Shown piece after piece: positions 17,467 to 32,462 of a stretch of 60,054 nucleotides of DNA; the first letter of the stretch is position 1, and each line of letters begins with the position of its first letter. A model generated the notes under the pieces. That model made no database searches and had not been told where the DNA came from. It saw only the letters and a list, made by a program, of their open reading frames with translations. This stretch comes from an uncultured Bacteroidales bacterium (GTDB lineage: Bacteria; Bacteroidota; Bacteroidia; Bacteroidales; CAIXZF01), in the NCBI GenBank assembly GCA_903923925.1, contig CAIXZF010000104.1, forward strand, positions 1-60,054, written 5' to 3'. Made by a program: the position numbers and the translations under genes.

Positions 17467-18543
17467 TTATTTCACAATCTTTATTGAAGTAATTTTTGCA
17501 TCTTCCTTAATATTCAGGAAATAGATCCCTTTGGCGATAGATGAGGTATTTATAGAAATTTGCTGATTCCCGATTTCCATTCTGCCCAGATTATTTGAAC
17601 GAACAAGCTGCCCGGTGGCATCTGTTAACTGATAACTCAAATCAGCACTTTTACTGAGGTTAAAATAAACATTTGCTGTTTCATTTACCGGATTCGGATA
17701 AACAGAATACGAAGCAGTTTCCTGATTCAAAGCAGTTATTCCTGTCGACAAGCCCACAGCAGTGCCATTTCCTGTGATAATTTCTTCATCAGCAGCATTT
17801 CTTGCAAACGCAACGAGTTCACAATTAGTCATGTCGAAATTTGTTGTTGAATTATCATAGGTATACGTTACTGTATAAAACGATCCTGCTGTGGTTGCGG
17901 AAGTTACAGGCTCTCCCCACTGAGCAGGCGTTGGCTGAGGAAAAGCAGCTCTGAACACATGGTTGTGAACATAGTTAGCAGTGCCCCCTGATTGGGTAGC
18001 AATAATGCCGTCTTCAGTGAGCATCGTAAATAATGTAACGGAATTTGTAACATCAGCCGTAAAATACATCTCTACGGTGATACTGAGCAGTTTTGACACT
18101 GCATCATAACTCGAACTGAGCCCAACGTTAACAGGAGAGTTTTCTCCTTTAATTGTTCCAACTTCAGAAGTCCAGCTTGTAGTACTCTGAATGCGCTCTA
18201 CCCCACCCCAAACTCTGCGGTTAATCATTGCACTCGGCATAAAACGGTTAGTAGGCGAAATAAAAGGATTTGTGTAAAAGGCATTCGGGAATGCATTTTT
18301 CATAGGATCAGTGGTTGTATAGCTGGAATTTGTTGGATGATAGGCGACAACAAAAACCGTTGACGGATTGGCAGTAAGAATGCTTGCAGCCATAGTATGC
18401 CCTCCGGGGCAATTCGGGCAAAGTGTTCCTGTAAATTCCTCTAAAATGGCCTTTTTGTTTTCAGGAGAAGTAGAAACATAATTTTGTGCTTTCAACCCAA
18501 AACCAAGGGAAAGCACACATAAAATAAGTAAAAATTGTTTCAT
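17467..18543 (-). CDS. Omp28-related T9SS protein with thioredoxin-like CxxC
   Basis: Predicted 358-residue exported protein. Signal peptide about 1-20 (GLKAQ). Residues 30-230 resemble the Omp28/thioredoxin-like family: KAILEEFTGTLCPNCPGG with C42-x-x-C45, followed by VFVVAYHPTN. Residues 285-358 are a T9SS sorting domain (SVYPNPVNETANVYFN, ending KITSIKIVK). Omp28 of Porphyromonas gingivalis is a surface protein with an adhesin-like role; a redox role for the CxxC is plausible but unproven here. It is convergent with the ArsR pair. A possible promoter box lies just upstream. Confidence 0.88.
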   Translation of the reverse strand: MKQFLLILCVLSLGFGLKAQNYVSTSPENKKAILEEFTGTLCPNCPGGHTMAASILTANPSTVFVVAYHPTNSSYTTTDPMKNAFPNAFYTNPFISPTNRFMPSAMINRRVWGGVERIQSTTSWTSEVGTIKGENSPVNVGLSSSYDAVSKLLSITVEMYFTADVTNSVTLFTMLTEDGIIATQSGGTANYVHNHVFRAAFPQPTPAQWGEPVTSATTAGSFYTVTYTYDNSTTNFDMTNCELVAFARNAADEEIITGNGTAVGLSTGITALNQETASYSVYPNPVNETANVYFNLSKSADLSYQLTDATGQLVRSNNLGRMEIGNQQISINTSSIAKGIYFLNIKEDAKITSIKIVK

Positions 18544-19506: not shown

Positions 19507-21279
19507 ATGAAGCAATTCTTTAAATTTATGTTTGCCTCAATGTTAGGCACTATACTTACGTTCGGTTTGATATTTGTTGTCTTTCTGATCATGATTGCCG
19601 CAGTGGTTGCGCTTACAGAAAAAGACACAACAGCACCTCCGGCAAAATCTGTCCTGATGCTGAATCTTGAAGATGAAATTGTTGAGCGGGGTCAGGATAA
19701 TCCATTTTCTAATTTAAAATTTGGTGGATTTAATTACGCAGCGCCAGTTGGATTAAATGACATCCTCAGTTGTATAAAAAAGGCTGAAACGGACGCCAAT
19801 ATCAGTGGTATTTATATTGAAAGTCCTACTGTTGGAAGCGGACCTGCATCTACCGAAGAAATCCGTAATGCATTGCTTGCTTTCAAAAAAACCGGAAAGT
19901 TTATTATTTCCTACGGCGACATGTATTCTCAAAAAGGATATTATCTTGCAACTGCTGCCGATAAAATCTACATTAATCCTCAGGGATATTTTGAATTAAA
20001 GGGAATTTCTGCTGATGTAATGTTTATTAAGGGCTTACTCGATAAATTGGACATCGAAGCCCAGATTATCCGTCATGGAAAATATAAAAGTGCTATCGAA
20101 CCATTGATTCAGGATAAAATGAGTCCGGCAAATAAGGAGCAGATGCAAACAATGATTTCTTCAATCTGGAACCACCTTGTAAAAGGCATTTCTGAAACAA
20201 GAAAACTCAGTGCAGTCGACATCAACACACTTGCGAATGGACTAAAAGTTACCAAGGCTGATCAGGCGCTTAATTACAAACTTGTTGATTCTCTGGTATA
20301 TAAAGATGGAGTATACGCAGTACTGCACAAACTCTTAAAAACTAAAGCTGATGAAAAAATCAACTTTATTACGCTGAGTACCTACAAGGATAGTCCTTCC
20401 ACTGTAAAAACCGAATCCGGGAAAGATAAGATCGCAGTAATCTATGCATCCGGAGATATAGTTGTAGGAAATGAAGAAGAAAACAATATCCCTTCGGAGG
20501 TATTTGCCAAAGCTGTACGTAAAGCAAGAGAAGACAAAAACGTTAAAGCTATTGTATTGAGAATCAACTCCCCAGGCGGAGTAATGATAGCCGCTGACAT
20601 CATTCTGCGTGAGCTCAAACTTGCAGCCAAGGAAAAACCAATAGTTTCTTCCTTTGGCGACTATGCTGCTTCGGGAGGGTATTATATTGCCTGTGCAAGT
20701 AATTATATTATTGCTCAGCCAACAACAATAACCGGTTCCATCGGGGTATTCAGTATAATCCCTAATTTGCAGAAAACCCTGAAAAACAAATTGGGAATAA
20801 CTGTGGATGGTGTAAAAACCAATGATAATGCCGAATATGTTTCCTTGCTGAAGCCTATGACAGCTTTTCAGAAGGAAGTTATGCTGCGTGAAACAGAATC
20901 TGCTTATGGAACCTTTATCGGATATGTTGCCCAGAACAGAAAAATGACGGTTGCAAATGTTGACAGTATCGGCCAGGGTCGGGTTTGGACTGGCGCTGAC
21001 GCTCTAAAAATCGGCCTGGTTGATGAAATCGGAAGTATCAACAGAGCAATTGAAAAAGCAGCTGAACTTGCTAAAATAAAGAACTACAGACTTATGACCC
21101 TTCCAAAAATGAAAGACCCTATGACCCAGATTATGGAGAGTATTTCAGGGAAAAGCAAGGAGGAAGTATTCCTAAAAAGCCATTTGGGAGAACTCTATGA
21201 ATACTATTCATACATAAAGTTCTCTCAGGGATATAAGGGCATCCAGGCAAGATTACCCTGGATCATCGACTTGAATTAA
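19507..21279 (+). CDS. sppA: Signal peptide peptidase SppA, 67K type
   Basis: Predicted 590-residue membrane-bound S49 protease that cleaves leftover signal peptides. A single N-terminal membrane helix spans about 10-35. Both halves of the tandem S49 fold are present, as in the E. coli-type long form. The catalytic Lys is K194 in HGKYKSAIEP (first half) and the nucleophile is S389 in YAASGGYY (second half); these correspond to the Lys/Ser dyad of E. coli SppA. The ITGSIGVF motif follows the Ser. Its stop codon overlaps the stop of the opposing acid-phosphatase gene by three bases. Confidence 0.95.
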   Translation: MKQFFKFMFASMLGTILTFGLIFVVFLIMIAAVVALTEKDTTAPPAKSVLMLNLEDEIVERGQDNPFSNLKFGGFNYAAPVGLNDILSCIKKAETDANISGIYIESPTVGSGPASTEEIRNALLAFKKTGKFIISYGDMYSQKGYYLATAADKIYINPQGYFELKGISADVMFIKGLLDKLDIEAQIIRHGKYKSAIEPLIQDKMSPANKEQMQTMISSIWNHLVKGISETRKLSAVDINTLANGLKVTKADQALNYKLVDSLVYKDGVYAVLHKLLKTKADEKINFITLSTYKDSPSTVKTESGKDKIAVIYASGDIVVGNEEENNIPSEVFAKAVRKAREDKNVKAIVLRINSPGGVMIAADIILRELKLAAKEKPIVSSFGDYAASGGYYIACASNYIIAQPTTITGSIGVFSIIPNLQKTLKNKLGITVDGVKTNDNAEYVSLLKPMTAFQKEVMLRETESAYGTFIGYVAQNRKMTVANVDSIGQGRVWTGADALKIGLVDEIGSINRAIEKAAELAKIKNYRLMTLPKMKDPMTQIMESISGKSKEEVFLKSHLGELYEYYSYIKFSQGYKGIQARLPWIIDLN

Positions 21280-22112
21280 AAGCCTTTCAAAAGACTCCTG
21301 CGGATGTGCCATTTCACTCCTGCAGTTTGTTTATTATAGTCAGGATAAAGACCCGATTCCCAGTCGCCATATGTTGCATTTGGCAACACAATGAATCTCT
21401 GTCCGAATTCTGCCTGAAGACTATCTGTTAAATGAATGCGGTCGGCGGCAGATTTTTTATCAAAAATACCTGCAAAATCATTGAGATTGTCGCCAATTAA
21501 CAATGAAATATGGTAGTTAACCATTAACTGTTTTCTCCTCAACTCTTTCCCAGAGACATCTTTTTTCATGATAAGATGGCGTTCGTCTGCCATTGGGAAA
21601 TTGTAGATTTGAAGATTTTTAAGCGTTGCTTCCTTCTGCTTTTCTTCCCTGTTGGTGATGTAAAATATCTGGTAAGACTTTGATTGAGCAAACTTCAGAA
21701 ACTCCGCTGCTCCTGGAATAGCCTCAGCTTTTGACTTGGTAACCCATTCCTCCCACAATTTTGGATAGGTTACATTTTGCTGAATACATGCAGCCTGGAA
21801 AGGACTGTTATCGAGAACAGTTTCGTCGATATCAAGAACAATTGCCTTATTCCCGGGAACTGAAGGTTTAGAATAATCGGTCTGAACTATTAATCCTGCC
21901 AGCCTGTATGCCTGGTAACACAGAGCCCTGTATTCGCCCGACTGCTGCTGATAAAGCGTAGCCATAACCGTTTGATCGTTATACATAGCAATAGTATCTT
22001 TCCCGGTATCATTAGCTGATGGAGCAGGTTTGGGGGATAAACTGCTAAGTACAAACCATCCTAAACCCAAACTGAGCAGACAAGATATACTAAAAATAAT
22101 TTTCTTCTTCAT
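21276..22112 (-). CDS. Acid phosphatase / 5'-nucleotidase, e(P4)-like HAD family
   Basis: Predicted 278-residue exported HAD-family phosphohydrolase. The nucleophile motif is VLDIDETVLDN (D94, D96), the middle motif FYITNREE, and the last acidic motif GDNLNDF. In Haemophilus the e(P4) protein dephosphorylates nucleotides such as NMN at the outer membrane. The N-terminus (1-24) is a hydrophobic leader; the Cys at position 10 is too close to the start for a good lipobox, so lipidation is doubtful here. Convergent with sppA; divergent from the MATE gene with about 100 bases between the starts. Confidence 0.88.
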   Translation of the reverse strand: MKKKIIFSISCLLSLGLGWFVLSSLSPKPAPSANDTGKDTIAMYNDQTVMATLYQQQSGEYRALCYQAYRLAGLIVQTDYSKPSVPGNKAIVLDIDETVLDNSPFQAACIQQNVTYPKLWEEWVTKSKAEAIPGAAEFLKFAQSKSYQIFYITNREEKQKEATLKNLQIYNFPMADERHLIMKKDVSGKELRRKQLMVNYHISLLIGDNLNDFAGIFDKKSAADRIHLTDSLQAEFGQRFIVLPNATYGDWESGLYPDYNKQTAGVKWHIRRSLLKGF

Positions 22113-22215
22113 TTATGTGTTTTTTCGCCAGAATCGACATGCAAAGTTGAAAAAAAATCAGATACCGTTTTTAATCACGAAAAATATTCATCACTTTGTC
22201 CTCTATTCGAATTTC

Positions 22216-23520
22216 ATGAACCGGAAAATACTGGCCTTAGCTATACCCAATATTGTTACCAACATCACTATCCCTTTGCTTGGTATGGTTGACATTGGAT
22301 TAATGGGGCATATGGGTTCTGCAGTTTACCTGGGAGCCATTGCAATTGGAACCATGATTTTCAATATTATTTTCTGGGGATTTAGTTTTCTGCGGATGGG
22401 TACCAGCGGATTCACAGCACAGGCATATGGTAGCCGCAACCTCAATGAATCAGTTCTGATTCTTTGCCGCTCACTCCTGGTTGGTCTGGCCGGAAGCATT
22501 GCTCTAATTCTTTTACAATATCCAATTGCATGGATTGCATTCAAGTTAGTAAACAGCACTACTGAAGTGGAATCGCTCGCCAGGCAGTATTTTTACATCC
22601 GCATTTATGCTGCTCCGGCAACACTCTGCATATATTCACTTACCGGGTGGTTCATTGGAATGCAGAATGCAAAATCTCCAATGATTCTGGCAATATCCGT
22701 TAATATACTGAATATCATTTTCAGCCTGATATTCATAAAAATTGCACATATGAACTCCGATGGAATTGCCCTGGCTAATGTGTGTTCCCAATGCATTGGG
22801 CTTTTATTCGGACTGTTTCTGATTCGGCCTTACTTCAGAAAATTAAAGAAATATCTCATTTTTAAAGATATCTTCAATGTAGGTGCATTGCGGCATTTCT
22901 TAAATGTAAACAAAGATATTTTTATAAGGACACTCTGCCTGATTTTCACATTTTCATTCTTTACAACTCAAAGTGCAAATACGAGTGATACAATTCTTGC
23001 TGTAAATACCCTGCTTTTCCAGTTTTTATTCTTCTTTTCCTACTTTGCTGATGGATTTGCATACGCTGCAGAGGCTCTCACCGGCAGATACATTGGATCT
23101 GGTGACCTAAAAATGCTTAAAAGAGTTATTCATCGTCTATTCACATTCGGAACCTTAATAGCAGTTGTATTTACGATTATATACCTGCTTGCAGGGCGTA
23201 CTATTTTAGGTTTACTTACCAACAATGAACAACTTATAGCCTCCACGCAGCCCTATGTTTTCTGGATTGTACTTCTGCCTTTAATTTCCTTCGCCGCATT
23301 TATCTGGGATGGGATCTATATTGGCGCAACTGCATCAAAAGCAATGCGGAACAGTATGCTGATAATTACTTTCGGAATATTTCTTCCTGTGTATTTTGCA
23401 GTTAAGCAATCAATGGGAAATCATGGTCTTTGGCTGGCTATGCTTCTCTTTATGGGATCAAGGGGTGTTTTCTTAACTTTTATGGCAGGAAGAACTATTT
23501 TTGGGTATAAATTGTTATGA
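22216..23520 (+). CDS. MATE family efflux transporter
   Basis: Predicted 434-residue inner-membrane multidrug/Na+ (or H+) antiporter of the MATE family, DinF-like branch. About 12 hydrophobic segments are visible. The start is chosen at 22216 (MNRKILALAIPNIVTNITIPLLGMVD), where the conserved first helix begins; an in-frame ATG at 22030 would overlap the divergent phosphatase gene and add a non-conserved stretch. Typical motifs include MVDIGLMGHMG near residue 25 and the repeated G-x-x-x-A-x-A patterns. It overlaps the next gene by four bases (ATGA). Confidence 0.93.
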   Translation: MNRKILALAIPNIVTNITIPLLGMVDIGLMGHMGSAVYLGAIAIGTMIFNIIFWGFSFLRMGTSGFTAQAYGSRNLNESVLILCRSLLVGLAGSIALILLQYPIAWIAFKLVNSTTEVESLARQYFYIRIYAAPATLCIYSLTGWFIGMQNAKSPMILAISVNILNIIFSLIFIKIAHMNSDGIALANVCSQCIGLLFGLFLIRPYFRKLKKYLIFKDIFNVGALRHFLNVNKDIFIRTLCLIFTFSFFTTQSANTSDTILAVNTLLFQFLFFFSYFADGFAYAAEALTGRYIGSGDLKMLKRVIHRLFTFGTLIAVVFTIIYLLAGRTILGLLTNNEQLIASTQPYVFWIVLLPLISFAAFIWDGIYIGATASKAMRNSMLIITFGIFLPVYFAVKQSMGNHGLWLAMLLFMGSRGVFLTFMAGRTIFGYKLL

Positions 23521-24227
23521 TAGACAAACAAATAGTTAACATGGGAAAGACCTCACTTATTCAATTAAATCCGGTTACAATTTCCAGAATGCTCGAAATT
23601 GCACCGAATGCGTTTCTTCTTTCTTTCCCACGTAGCTTTGAATTTGAGGCTGGACAGGTAATCGGAGTCGGGCTAAGTAAATTTGATGATGCACGGATCT
23701 ACAGTATTGCCAGCGGCACAAAGGAGGATCAGATTGATATTCTTTTCGATATTAAAGCTGAAGGCTACCTTACACCTAAACTGGCATCCTTTAAAGCTGG
23801 CGACACACTCTTCGTTTCCGAACCTTTTGGTAGTTTTCATGGCTCTGAAAATACTGCATGGTGGATTGCAAGTGGTACAGGTATTGCACCTTACCGCAGC
23901 ATGCTTCGATCGGGCTTTGGTGGAGGTAAGTGGGTTATTCACGGGAGCAGGACAGAAGCGTCATTCTATTTCGCCGATGAATTCTCAAATGCATTCGGAC
24001 ATCATTATGTTCGCTGTCTCTCACAGAAAAACATACCATCGGACGCCATGCCCGACAAGCAGATTTTCAAGGGCAGAGTGACACAATTTTTGGAGACCTT
24101 CGACATTTTACAAAAAGAGCTTCAGTATTTTCTGTGTGGCAGTGCTGAAATGGTTATTGAATGCCGTGAACTTTTACTTGAAAAAAAGGTTCCTTACGGG
24201 AATATTATGGCTGAGGTTTATTTCTGA
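23517..24227 (+). CDS. Ferredoxin/flavodoxin-NADP reductase-like oxidoreductase
   Basis: Predicted 236-residue flavoprotein of the FNR superfamily. The FAD-binding motif RIYSIASG (RxYS) is near residue 61, followed by a SEPFGSF stretch. The NAD(P)-binding half has ASGTGIAPYRSML near residue 120, VIHGSRTEASFYF, and a C-terminal FLCGSAEMVIECRELL. It lacks an iron-sulfur domain, so it would shuttle electrons between NAD(P)H and a separate ferredoxin or flavodoxin; PFOR at 41 kb produces reduced ferredoxin. The start overlaps the MATE stop; a second ATG at 23541 (MGKTSLIQLNP) is an equally good start. After it lie 176 bases in which nothing was recognised. Confidence 0.85.
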   Translation: MIDKQIVNMGKTSLIQLNPVTISRMLEIAPNAFLLSFPRSFEFEAGQVIGVGLSKFDDARIYSIASGTKEDQIDILFDIKAEGYLTPKLASFKAGDTLFVSEPFGSFHGSENTAWWIASGTGIAPYRSMLRSGFGGGKWVIHGSRTEASFYFADEFSNAFGHHYVRCLSQKNIPSDAMPDKQIFKGRVTQFLETFDILQKELQYFLCGSAEMVIECRELLLEKKVPYGNIMAEVYF

Positions 24228-24403: not shown

Positions 24404-26203
24404 TCATTTCCCTTTTATCCTGTAAGATAATCCAAGGCTCATACCCTGTGGCTCATAAAGCCCTGATGACCTTTTCGTAAAATAGCTGGCTTGTGCCCGC
24501 CAACTATCTGTAAATGCCCACTCAGAACTCACATAGTAAGAAGAGAGTGCATAACCAATTTCAAGTGAAGGCCAACTGTTGTTATTAAATCCTGTTCCCA
24601 TTCCAAACGAATAATAACCAAGGGGATGTGAAAAACGGTATGAACTGCCAAAACTGCTTCTCACATAAAACGTTTTTAACGAACCAATTCTAACACCAAT
24701 TTGAGGAATGTAATTTACTGCCCTCAAATCATCATCTATTTCTCCTACGGTCTCAGCGTTGGTTTTTAAACCCGGATAATAAAAACTGCCGATATGATTT
24801 CCTAAAACAAATCCAAAGCCTTTTGCTTCATACCGGTAAGCAGCACTAAATTTATATGTTGAGAAACTCCTGTGAATACTTGTATCAACAACATCATCAT
24901 TTTCACTTCCAATAGTCAGCCCGAGATCAAGAATATTCTGCCTGTGTTTTGATCCTACTCCAATTAAAGAGTAGCCAAACGTACCCTGAGAAAAAGTCCT
25001 TTTTGACCTGTAATAAGGGCTGTAAACAGGACCCGAACCGCATCCGGAAGATGAGTAATCTATAACCTTCCGGATATTATGATAATAATGACCAAAGCTA
25101 CCCGAAACGTTAATGTCATGATATAGCCCTTTTTGAAGGTCTGCATCCCTGTATGATTGGCCGAGACACAGAAATCCAGCAATCGCGAGTGTAAACGAAA
25201 GGCTGCGTTGTACAGTCTTTTTGAATTCAAAGTAGAGTAAAACTACAACAGAAATAAGTGAGGAAAAGAGGAGTAACTGCAAAATTACTTTCTCCGCGAT
25301 GTCCAGGGAAGGCAAAAAATAGGAATATAGTATAAATAAGAAGGAAAGGAATGTAAGTGTGCGCCATAAGTCAGGCTGGTAGGACCTCGTTTCCCATGGG
25401 GAATGCTTCCATACACGTTCCCATAAAAAGATAAAGGTTCCGAATACCATTATAGCTGCCAGTATTTCCCATTGCACTACTTTTAATCCCCAACTGAATT
25501 CTCCTCCAAAATGATGATTGGAAACGTCCCTGAAAAACTCTCCTATAAACCTGCAGATTAAGTACAAAAAAATTGCAAAAAATCGTATTGTTCCTGGTGT
25601 TGAAAATCTACGGTATGTTTTAAGCAAAATAATAAATGCAATTGCGAGCAATCCTGCGATATACAAAGGAACCGGGTGAACCGGCAGAGATACAGCACCA
25701 GCTGAAAGGCAATGCCCGTCCAAAACCTGGAATGAATACGGGATTGATCCTGAATCATACCGTATACTCCAGGGTAAATAGCTAACGTAACCAGCACAGC
25801 AACCGGCAAATAAACATCCAAACTGCTGGACAAATAAGGCAATCGGCACAACAAGTCCGGATTTATCCAGGCGTAATGGATTGAATTTCAGCCAATGGGC
25901 TACAAGAAATGCACCCAGAAACATCATCGGGTAACCCGTTAATGCTGATTTTTGCTCTGTATGCGAGAATTGGAAAGAAGTAAGAATATAATTCCAGCTC
26001 TCTTTATCAAAAGTCCCCAATTTGCTCCCCAGGATAAAGAAGAAAACGCAGCCGCTTAAGGTAAGCAAGACTTTTGGCAAGGGATACTTTTCTCTTACAC
26101 CCTGAATTACATATGCACCAAGGACAATTAAAAGTGCCAGAAGAAATGTGACCGGGAAAAGCCAACTGAGTTTGTGGGTTGGCATGACTAATTCTGCAAA
26201 CAT
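24404..26203 (-). CDS. Lgt-like multi-pass membrane protein with beta-rich C-terminal extension
   Basis: Predicted 599-residue protein. Residues 1-265 resemble prolipoprotein diacylglyceryl transferase (Lgt) and its relatives: seven hydrophobic helices, QQFGCLFAGCC at 126-136, a VHPVPLY motif at 175-181, and RFIGEFFRD near 218. The Arg in the usual GRxGCF motif is replaced (QQFGCL), so diacylglyceryl transfer is uncertain. Residues 282-350 add about three more helices. Residues 355-599 contain alternating hydrophobic/polar strands with Gly- and Tyr-rich turns (GFGFVLGNHIGSFYYPG, YYSFGMGTGFNNNSW), like a small beta-barrel or beta-sandwich. The usual Lgt is under 300 residues. The combination is odd: the first half belongs in the inner membrane, the second looks like envelope beta structure. 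No operon partner. A start at 26185 is also possible. Confidence 0.72.
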   Translation of the reverse strand: MFAELVMPTHKLSWLFPVTFLLALLIVLGAYVIQGVREKYPLPKVLLTLSGCVFFFILGSKLGTFDKESWNYILTSFQFSHTEQKSALTGYPMMFLGAFLVAHWLKFNPLRLDKSGLVVPIALFVQQFGCLFAGCCAGYVSYLPWSIRYDSGSIPYSFQVLDGHCLSAGAVSLPVHPVPLYIAGLLAIAFIILLKTYRRFSTPGTIRFFAIFLYLICRFIGEFFRDVSNHHFGGEFSWGLKVVQWEILAAIMVFGTFIFLWERVWKHSPWETRSYQPDLWRTLTFLSFLFILYSYFLPSLDIAEKVILQLLLFSSLISVVVLLYFEFKKTVQRSLSFTLAIAGFLCLGQSYRDADLQKGLYHDINVSGSFGHYYHNIRKVIDYSSSGCGSGPVYSPYYRSKRTFSQGTFGYSLIGVGSKHRQNILDLGLTIGSENDDVVDTSIHRSFSTYKFSAAYRYEAKGFGFVLGNHIGSFYYPGLKTNAETVGEIDDDLRAVNYIPQIGVRIGSLKTFYVRSSFGSSYRFSHPLGYYSFGMGTGFNNNSWPSLEIGYALSSYYVSSEWAFTDSWRAQASYFTKRSSGLYEPQGMSLGLSYRIKGK

Positions 26204-26438: not shown

Positions 26439-27467
26439 ATGTCCCTGTTATTAGGCAAAACCCTTGAAGAACTTAAACAAGTCGTTACTGAACTTGGTTT
26501 GCCTAAGTACACTGCTGATCAGTTAGCGGTTTGGCTCTATAAAACCAATATTTCATCTTTCGATGAAATGACGAATCTCTCCAGAGGAAACCGCGATCTT
26601 CTTTCGCAACACTATGAATTTGGTGCTAAGCCTTATCTTAAAGTTCAGGAATCGGGTGATGGAACAAAAAAATACCTCTACCCTGCCCTTGGCAACAAAT
26701 TTATAGAAACAGCCTACATGCCCGACCTGAAACGAAACACCCTTTGTGTATCGACACAGGTAGGTTGTAAAATGGGCTGCCTGTTCTGCATGACTGCAAA
26801 ACAAGGTTTCCAGGGGAATCTCGATTCAGGTGAAATAATCAACCAGCTCCGTAGTCTGCCTGAAAGGGAAAAAGTCACAAATGTTGTATATATGGGAATG
26901 GGTGAACCCTTCGACAATACTGCTGAAGTGATGAGGAGTTCGGAAGTGCTTACTGCTGAATACGGCTTCAATCTGAGTGTGCGTAAAGTAACAGTTTCCA
27001 CAATTGGTATCATTCCGGGCATACGAACCTTCCTTGAAAACAGCAAATGCAACCTTGCCGTCAGCCTTCATTCTCCTTTCGATGAGGAGCGCCGGCAGCT
27101 AATGCCTATTCAGCATGTTTATCCGGTGAAGGATGTAATTGCGACACTCATTCAATACGACATAAACAGGTATCGTAAAGTTTCATTTGAATACATTATG
27201 TTTAAGGGAATAAACGACACACCCCGCCATGTAAAAGAATTGGCAAGGCTTTTAAATAAAGTCAGATGCCGTATTAACCTGTTACGATTCCATCCGGTCC
27301 CAAATGTGCCACTCGAAGGATCCGACAATATTACGATCATGGCTTTCCAGAAAGCACTGAACGACAAAGGGATAATTACAACAGTCAGGCAATCGCGCGG
27401 ACTTGATATTGATGCCGCCTGCGGAATGCTTTCAACAAAAACATTGGTTAACAAAGATCTGCTGTAA
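26439..27467 (+). CDS. rlmN: Dual-specificity 23S rRNA/tRNA adenine C2-methyltransferase RlmN
   Basis: Predicted 342-residue radical SAM enzyme that makes m2A at position 2503 of 23S rRNA and m2A37 in some tRNAs. The radical SAM cluster motif C110-x3-C114-x2-C117 (CKMGCLFC) is intact, followed by the family sequence MTAKQGFQGNL. The YMGMGEPFDN and STIGIIPGI motifs and the late catalytic Cys in DAACGML (C-terminal region) are present. Length and order of motifs fit the family. It is probably a single gene or the first of a short run; the methyltransferase gene starts 56 bases downstream. Confidence 0.96.
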   Translation: MSLLLGKTLEELKQVVTELGLPKYTADQLAVWLYKTNISSFDEMTNLSRGNRDLLSQHYEFGAKPYLKVQESGDGTKKYLYPALGNKFIETAYMPDLKRNTLCVSTQVGCKMGCLFCMTAKQGFQGNLDSGEIINQLRSLPEREKVTNVVYMGMGEPFDNTAEVMRSSEVLTAEYGFNLSVRKVTVSTIGIIPGIRTFLENSKCNLAVSLHSPFDEERRQLMPIQHVYPVKDVIATLIQYDINRYRKVSFEYIMFKGINDTPRHVKELARLLNKVRCRINLLRFHPVPNVPLEGSDNITIMAFQKALNDKGIITTVRQSRGLDIDAACGMLSTKTLVNKDLL

Positions 27468-31136: not shown

Positions 31137-32462
31137 ATGAAGAATAACTTAATCCTGATTTTACTTATCCTGCTGGGAAGCCTTTCGCGGGCTTTTCCTC
31201 AATCGCCGGCTCTGGTAGGGTACTGGCACAACTGGCAGGATGCCAATGCACCCTATATTCCTCTCGACCAGGTAGATAGCAGGTATACAATTATCAATAT
31301 AGCTTTCGCTGTACCTCAGTCTGGGACAGATTACAAGCTGGAGTTCATTCCCGATCAGCTTACTCCTGCGGCACTAATCTCACAGATTCAAACTGTTCAG
31401 GCCCAGGGCAGAAAGGTAATTATTAGTGTGGGGGGAGCAAATGCTCCGGTTATTCTGCATACTGCTGCTGAACGCGACACCTTTGAAATAAGACTGTTAA
31501 GCATTCTGAATTATTATGGTTTTGATGGCATTGATATTGATTTCGAAGGGGCCTCGCTATCGGTTAGTGGCGGAACACTATATACGCCAGTTGATCAACC
31601 AATTATCAATCTGATTACAGCAATTAAACTCGTGATGCAGAATTATCAGATCATTCATCACAAGAAACTATATCTTTCAATGGCGCCCGAAACTGCATTT
31701 GTTCAGGGCGGAAAATCAGCCTATTCAGGAATTTGGGGTGCCTATTTACCAGTAATACAAGCACTTCGCGACTCTTTAGACATTTTGCATGTACAATTAT
31801 ACAACAGTGGCAGCATGATAGGGCCTGATGGAAACACCTATTCACAAGGTACTGCTGATTTTATTGTTGCCATGACAGAGATGCTTATTCAGGGATTCGG
31901 CACTTCGGGGGGTACATTTTTCGGATTACCAGCCAACAAAATCGCAATTGGACTTCCTGCCTGCAGTAATGCTGCAGGCGGAGGATATGCCGACACTTCA
32001 GTTGTTGGTTCAGCAGTCCGGTATCTCAGGGGTGTTGGCCCCAAACCCGGCATTTACAGTATAATTCATGCAGGTGGCTATCCGGATCTCCGGGGAATGA
32101 TGACATGGTCGGTGAACTGGGATGCAACATCAAACTGCAGCTCTCCATGGGAATTCGCCTCAAGTTATCAGTCGTTGTTTATGAATACAACATCGATTGA
32201 AGAACATCAGAAAAATGAAGGCGTTTCAGTTTATCCGAATCCCTGTACCGACCGAATAATCATCAGAGCAGGAAGAAGTTGCGGACTTTTAGAAAACCTG
32301 GCCATTTACAATATCAGAGGTGTCTGTGTTTTTCGGGAAGAAAGTATCGGGAGTGAGATGCAGATCGATTTTTCAAAGTTCAGTGCTGGATTTTATTACA
32401 TCAGAGCAGGAACAGAATGTGTGCGGATAGTAAAAGCTCAAAGTGGCGTGCGGTTAGATTAA
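31137..32462 (+). CDS. GH18 chitinase-like T9SS protein
   Basis: Predicted 441-residue secreted glycoside hydrolase. Signal peptide about 1-21 (AFPQS). The GH18 TIM barrel follows, with SVGG near residue 97 and the catalytic DxxDxDxE as DGIDIDFE (D130 to E137), where E137 is the proton donor. LSMAPE and MTWSVNWDA match the later conserved GH18 strands. Residues 365-441 form a T9SS sorting domain (VYPNPCTDRIII...). The enzyme should hydrolyse chitin or a related N-acetylglucosamine polymer outside the cell. It is followed after 18 bases by the exonuclease gene. Confidence 0.93.
   Translation: MKNNLILILLILLGSLSRAFPQSPALVGYWHNWQDANAPYIPLDQVDSRYTIINIAFAVPQSGTDYKLEFIPDQLTPAALISQIQTVQAQGRKVIISVGGANAPVILHTAAERDTFEIRLLSILNYYGFDGIDIDFEGASLSVSGGTLYTPVDQPIINLITAIKLVMQNYQIIHHKKLYLSMAPETAFVQGGKSAYSGIWGAYLPVIQALRDSLDILHVQLYNSGSMIGPDGNTYSQGTADFIVAMTEMLIQGFGTSGGTFFGLPANKIAIGLPACSNAAGGGYADTSVVGSAVRYLRGVGPKPGIYSIIHAGGYPDLRGMMTWSVNWDATSNCSSPWEFASSYQSLFMNTTSIEEHQKNEGVSVYPNPCTDRIIIRAGRSCGLLENLAIYNIRGVCVFREESIGSEMQIDFSKFSAGFYYIRAGTECVRIVKAQSGVRLD

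Follow-up and report, generated by a model that had tools for sequence, protein, structure and literature searches.

A gene joining an Lgt-like membrane half to a predicted outer-membrane barrel in Bacteroidota, possibly a polyprotein for two membranes

Proteins of the inner and the outer membrane have different folds and use different insertion machines, and they are not expected in one chain. The fbcH cytochrome b/c1 protein of Bradyrhizobium is a bacterial membrane polyprotein that is cut by signal peptidase, and both of its products stay at the inner membrane. The prolipoprotein diacylglyceryl transferase Lgt of E. coli has its N-terminus outside. According to excerpts of PMC4728403, this enzyme has seven helices and an active cavity that is open to the periplasm; the mutants tried at R143, E151, H103, R239, E243, and R246 gave no complementation, and those at R143 and E151 were inactive. 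H103 is not universal among Lgt proteins, as stated in an excerpt of PMC13251419. In Bacteroidetes species, on average 71% of the signal peptidase I substrates have a Gln directly after the cleavage site, and the test of this "Q-rule", as excerpts of the paper describe it, did not cover inner-membrane proteins (PMC5837995). The Gln at the cleaved N-terminus is later cyclised, according to an excerpt of PMC10653852. Among the open-licence PMC papers listed by our searches, none dealt with an Lgt–barrel fusion, a polyprotein with an internal signal peptide, fbcH, or one chain residing in both membranes.

In this study, the window is the whole stretch of DNA that was analysed, 60,054 nucleotides from an uncultured Bacteroidales bacterium. 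The gene under study lies on its minus strand and runs from an ATG at 26203 to a stop that ends at 24404, with 599 unbroken codons (Table 1). The initial annotation had placed a single 599-residue frame here, which was confirmed, and the strand, which it lacked, can now be added. Its core observation, an Lgt-type half joined to a beta-rich half in a single frame, also held. Both halves were found in a single frame in all 18 members of the family, that is, the window copy and 17 homologues, two members ending at contig ends, and the median pairwise identity among the 18 was 23%. Because the 17 homologues carry both halves in one frame, an assembly error, a chimera, or a missed frameshift is ruled out, and the earlier judgement that a fused assembly error was unlikely was borne out. 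The fusion and its conservation are directly established, and so are the kept Gln, the homology to Lgt, and the replaced catalytic places described below; the number of helices and the barrel fold come from models.

Table 1. Features of the fused gene, with positions counted in the window.
Feature	Residues	Positions	Strand	Basis
Whole ORF, Lgt-like half fused to a predicted outer-membrane barrel, 599 aa		24404–26203	minus	frame; 17 homologues with both halves
Lgt-fold seven-helix half	1–265	25409–26203	minus	Pfam LGT; profile against 5azb; AF2 helices
GCLFAGCC, in place of Lgt GNFINGEL	129–136	25796–25819	minus	alignment
HPVPLY	176–181	25661–25678	minus	alignment
R218, E222, and R225, equivalents of E. 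coli Lgt R239/E243/R246	218–225	25529–25552	minus	profile alignment
TM8 and TM9, two predicted helices additional to the seven of Lgt	277–324	25232–25375	minus	hydropathy; model
Helix 10, signal-peptide-like (Arg333, hydrophobic core, Gly348)	329–348	25160–25219	minus	hydropathy; alignment
Proposed signal peptidase I site	Gly348 / Gln349	25157–25162	minus	[AGS]Q conservation
Predicted outer-membrane-type barrel	349–599	24407–25159	minus	AF2; VIA-align
Last strand LSYRIKGK, possible OMP beta-signal	592–599	24407–24430	minus	alignment

The fusion was also found elsewhere in the Bacteroidota. In an initial search, which covered 59 genomes and mostly one for each genus, the full-length protein was found in the genome of the window and in genome G038, and the profile for the order-wide search was built from these two proteins. 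At least 17 of 393 genomes matched that profile at E ≤ 1e-10, which is a lower bound, as are the other order-wide counts, because no more than three candidates from each genome were scored. At least 10 of these 17 genomes, the genome of the window included, carry at least 12 long fused frames (at least 527 aa), of which those in G076 and G116 extend up to the end of the contig; the remaining seven hold five canonical Lgt proteins, one single-domain relative (G383), and a broken fused copy (G270). In the broken copy (L102/L164, G270:C26), the N-part is in another frame than the C-part, and the stretch between them is unmatched. A scan of genome contigs, among at least 80 loci, added L011 (Saprospiraceae), L012 (Bacteroidia), and L016 (Bacteroidetes). 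When 395 genomes were drawn from the phylum, 88 matched at E ≤ 1e-12, and fused-length frames among these matches occurred only in the genome of the window, in G558 (same class), and in G622 (another class). When 395 genomes were drawn from the class, three matched at E ≤ 1e-35, namely the genome of the window, G558, and G1084. The fused gene is sparse in its distribution and is doubled in G337 and G353.

In a midpoint-rooted tree of 74 Lgt halves (18 fused, 6 canonical, and 50 single-domain), a branch with a support of 100/99 separates the fused members from the canonical and the single-domain rows; L112 and L149 have long branches. A single origin of the fusion is the simplest reading of this tree. 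Ka was 0.13 and 0.09 for the two halves of the pair L011/L012, against Ks of 0.74 and 0.93; for L097/L099, Ka was 0.21 and 0.28, against a Ks of 0.83 and a saturated one. These rates indicate purifying selection on each half in both of the close pairs that were compared. The profile of the C-half matched at least nine of 295 genomes of the order, with at most nine candidates scored per genome, and the matches were seven fused frames, the broken copy of G270, and a marginal match in G072. No clear standalone barrel gene was found with this profile in the 295 genomes. The marginal match (L148, G072:C58:67-366, E 4e-4) is a 160-aa frame close to the contig start.

The N-half of the window protein is homologous to Lgt. 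It matched Pfam LGT (PF01790) over residues 95–257 with 47.3 bits against a gathering cut-off of 24.9, and a profile of 15 N-halves matched E. coli Lgt (5AZB) at 3.2e-14, which supports the Lgt-type seven-helix half of the initial annotation. The AF2 helices of this half had pLDDT values of 54–96 in ten-residue blocks. With the full-length model as the query, no Foldseek match fell below 0.001 and none of the best 50 rows was an Lgt entry, so the assignment of this fold rests on sequence. The two motifs that had been noted earlier, GCLFAGCC and HPVPLY, could be placed in the alignment; G129, C130, G134, C135, and C136 are kept in all 18 members, and H176, P177, and Y181 in 17 members each. As in Lgt, the HPxxLY motif is present and the places of R239, E243, and R246 are kept (R218 in 18, E222 in 14, and R225 in 17 of the 18 members, all three in the window copy).

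Other catalytic places of Lgt are replaced. By profile alignment to E. coli Lgt, the place of H103 (in HGGL) is taken by Leu88 in the window copy; the place of N146 is Cys in all 18 members, and so is that of E151 (Cys135 in the window copy). The place of R143 is Gln127 in the window copy, so the earlier description of QQ instead of GR was right for this copy, but 14 of the 18 members have Arg at the second position. The N-half is Lgt-like by ancestry and probably handles lipids. With the places of H103, N146, and E151 replaced, and that of R143 too in the window copy, it does not count as a standard Lgt, and enzyme activity may even be lost in the window copy. The same Cys-rich motif replaces the Lgt signature in single-domain Lgt relatives with GCxxAGCC, most of which were picked for comparison partly by that very motif. 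Unlike the fused protein, these relatives are approximately 250–300 aa long and have neither the added helices nor the C-half. Two further LGT proteins are encoded in the same genome (L001, G000:C4:1024-1761; L002, G000:C39:62089-62805), one a canonical Lgt and the other, L002, with GCFFAGCC.

In the full-length model, helices were placed at residues 15–37, 42–64, 82–105 (two pieces), 112–133 (two pieces), 178–196, 205–224, 242–266, 277–295, 302–324, and 329–349, and only strands from residue 360 on. A hydropathy scan of the window protein found nine of these ten helices and missed 205–224. Three of the modelled helices lie between the Lgt fold and the beta part, in agreement with the extra helices described in the initial annotation. 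In the window copy, the loop between TM7 and TM8 has four Arg/Lys residues and that between TM8 and TM9 has one. With ten helices counted from an N-out start as in Lgt, the C-half would lie on the periplasmic side.

Helix 10 resembles an internal signal peptide, a feature that had been missed earlier. Its C-terminal end is [AGS]Q in 15 of the 18 members, which are related and so do not amount to 15 independent events, although the surrounding sequence has almost fully diverged; in the same proteins, only 9 of 159 C-terminal ends of helices 1–9 have [AGS]Q. In a crude sample of proteins with at least four hydrophobic segments from the genome of the window, [AGS]Q was found at 23 of 293 helix ends. 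Arg333 at the start of helix 10 is also kept in 15 of the 18 members, and in the region of residues 262–372 only E304, R333, and Q349 reach this number. The Gln is absent in L112 and in the close pair L011 and L012, and the residue at -3 is poor at some sites (Phe in L094 and L108). Helix 10 of the window copy resembles the Bacteroidetes Q-rule substrates, as excerpts of PMC5837995 describe them, in having a positive n-region with Arg, a hydrophobic core, a small residue at -1, and Gln at +1; unlike in those substrates, the signal is internal and forms the tenth helix of a multi-pass protein. Among 55 crude signal-peptide candidates of the same genome, 23 have [AGSTC]Q.

The genome of the window encodes a Peptidase_S26 protein. 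At G000:C78:13339-14448, the signal peptidase I lies in a 519-aa frame, with approximately 130 residues between its two Peptidase_S26 matches. A scan of 588,451 bases for further multi-pass frames that have [AGS]Q followed by a long tail gave 11 rows, of which 8 were copies of the fused family and 3 were judged by eye to be false positives of the secreted type; the scan was not sensitive because it missed further intact copies of the family in the stretches scanned, including that of the window.

The C-half was modelled alone by AF2 from four sequences, and it was predicted to be all-beta, not helical, with 11 strand elements at low confidence (pLDDT 53.4, pTM 0.50). In the full-length model, nine strands were seen after residue 349, with block means of 24–59. 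On these models, a barrel of 10–12 strands is likely. VIA-align 2, which re-ranks Foldseek's own matches, was run with the low-confidence C-half model, and all 50 entries listed were outer-membrane barrel proteins by title, with NalP (1uyn) at the top (Z 15.3, 3.1 Å over 186 residues). The best 50 Foldseek rows were nearly all outer-membrane barrels as well, with low TM-scores (0.11–0.40), the exceptions being a soluble enzyme (5upb_C) and a chain of the chloroplast TOC-TIC complex. The predicted fold is like that of autotransporter translocator domains, CymA, and OmpG, whereas the identity to such barrels is at most 12% in the VIA-align rows listed.

By sequence, the window C-half matched no Pfam family and no NCBIfam family at E ≤ 1, and the C-half profile matched no solved structure. 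The best family result among the members, PagL, reached 0.0027 in 1 of 15 C-halves and was absent in all 10 rescanned, and the LBF_2804 family reached 0.11 in 1 of 15; both were set aside. The initial annotation had described approximately 245 residues of alternating amphipathic strands. About 250 residues are indeed predicted to be all-beta, but the alternation of hydropathy is not clear: the odd/even value of the window C-half was above the shuffled mean, yet 136 of 1000 shuffles reached it, and for 7 of the 18 members the value was reached by at most 50 of 1000 shuffles. In the last strand, the aligned places hold Tyr in 13, Arg in 11, and Phe in 11 of the 18 members, and exactly YRF in 6. 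This ending, possibly an OMP beta-signal, is followed by a tail of a few to approximately 25 residues. The window copy reads YRI, without the final aromatic residue.

We believe, with a probability of roughly 0.6, that the gene encodes a polyprotein whose cleavage by signal peptidase I yields an Lgt-like protein for the inner membrane and a barrel for the outer one. That a single gene equips both membranes at a 1:1 stoichiometry, through cleavage at an internal Q-rule signal peptide, seems to us marginally better than an even bet. The ribosome would make an inner-membrane protein of the Lgt fold with ten helices, the last of which, oriented N-in, C-out, would serve as the internal signal peptide. 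Cleavage by signal peptidase I would take place between Gly348 and Gln349, and the exposed Gln349 would turn into pyroglutamate. The freed C-half of 251 residues would pass via periplasmic chaperones to BAM and enter the outer membrane as a barrel of 10–12 strands, and the N-half of 348 residues would stay in the inner membrane as an Lgt-derived, phospholipid-handling transferase with an altered active site. Unlike fbcH, the fused gene would thus send one product to the outer membrane. Our guess is that the two products, made 1:1, would share a single task, the modification of envelope lipids, with one of them acting in each membrane. The main weak points of the polyprotein reading are the low-confidence barrel model and the three members without the Gln, and we also count against it that no conserved neighbour at 19 loci points to a pathway.

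Helix 10 might instead remain uncut, and the C-half would then be a periplasmic beta-domain tethered to the inner membrane, perhaps with a lipid or substrate pocket beside the Lgt-like active site. We consider this unlikely, yet it deserves real weight: it agrees with the single frame in all 18 members, with the three members that lack the Gln, and with the five members that have no ATG, GTG, or TTG 12–40 codons before the site, because of which the tie between the two halves appears to be translational. The 50 of 50 outer-membrane barrels among the VIA-align entries listed and the OMP-like end of the last strand in part of the members argue against it, and the conservation of the Gln would be hard to explain without cleavage. 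The same start codons bear on the idea that the barrel is also made alone, from an internal start in or before helix 10, as one of two overlapping genes in the same frame. Seven members (L093, L094, L098, L096, L097, L100, and L149) do have an in-frame ATG 13–38 codons before the site. In 5 of the 18 members (the window copy, L095, L011, L016, and L099), none of the three start codons occurs at 12–40 codons before the site, which makes a general internal start highly unlikely.

The initial annotation had proposed an envelope enzyme that modifies lipids or passes them on across the periplasm, which we read as one uncut protein residing in both membranes. A helical membrane half and a barrel-like half do stand in one chain, and longer linkers occur (to aligned residue 361, approximately 31 residues in L100 against 11 in the window copy). 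However, the first strand of the window copy begins approximately 10 residues after Gln349, a linker of less than 4 nm when stretched (approximately 11 nm for L100), and the periplasm is roughly 20 nm or more in width, so an uncut protein could hardly span both membranes. This linker and the conserved signal-peptidase-type Gln site make two mature proteins likelier than one trans-envelope enzyme, and we find the latter the least credible of all readings; what stands of the earlier interpretation is a real fusion of an Lgt fold with a barrel-like half, not a single enzyme reaching across. The reading of the protein as an ordinary Lgt to which an unrelated tail has been added is also very improbable. 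The Pfam LGT score and the kept R239/E243/R246 places would fit an ordinary Lgt, but the NCBIfam equivalog models were not reached (16.6 against 118.9 bits for TIGR00544 and 26.7 against 334 for NF000778), four other catalytic places are replaced in the window copy, and the two other LGT proteins of the genome both pass TIGR00544, although they too fall below NF000778. The label "prolipoprotein diacylglyceryl transferase" on such fused genes is probably wrong.

If the polyprotein reading is true, a multi-pass protein would end in a genuine signal peptide, and fusion with a signal-peptidase-type site would be a simple route to a matched pair for two membranes. It would also point to a family of proteins that derive from Lgt and have a partner in the outer membrane.

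No widely recurring neighbour gene was found around 19 loci (the 18 members and the broken copy), several of which end at contig ends; the largest neighbour cluster had six ORFs from 4 of the 19, and the idea of a conserved operon was dropped. A search of a plasmid collection gave no match. In the window, the fused gene is divergent from an RlmN-like gene (26439–27467) and convergent with an oxidoreductase-like gene (23517–24227) that has NAD- and FAD-binding matches. A MatE protein is encoded at 22030–23520 (plus); its listed TTG start overlaps the adjoining gene, and the true start is probably further in. A peptidase S49 protein (SppA-like, 590 aa) is encoded close to the fused gene at 19507–21279 (plus). 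Two proteins with a type IX secretion tail (Por_Secre_tail) are also encoded in the window, an Omp28-like protein at 17467–18543 (minus) and a GH18 protein at 31137–32462 (plus).
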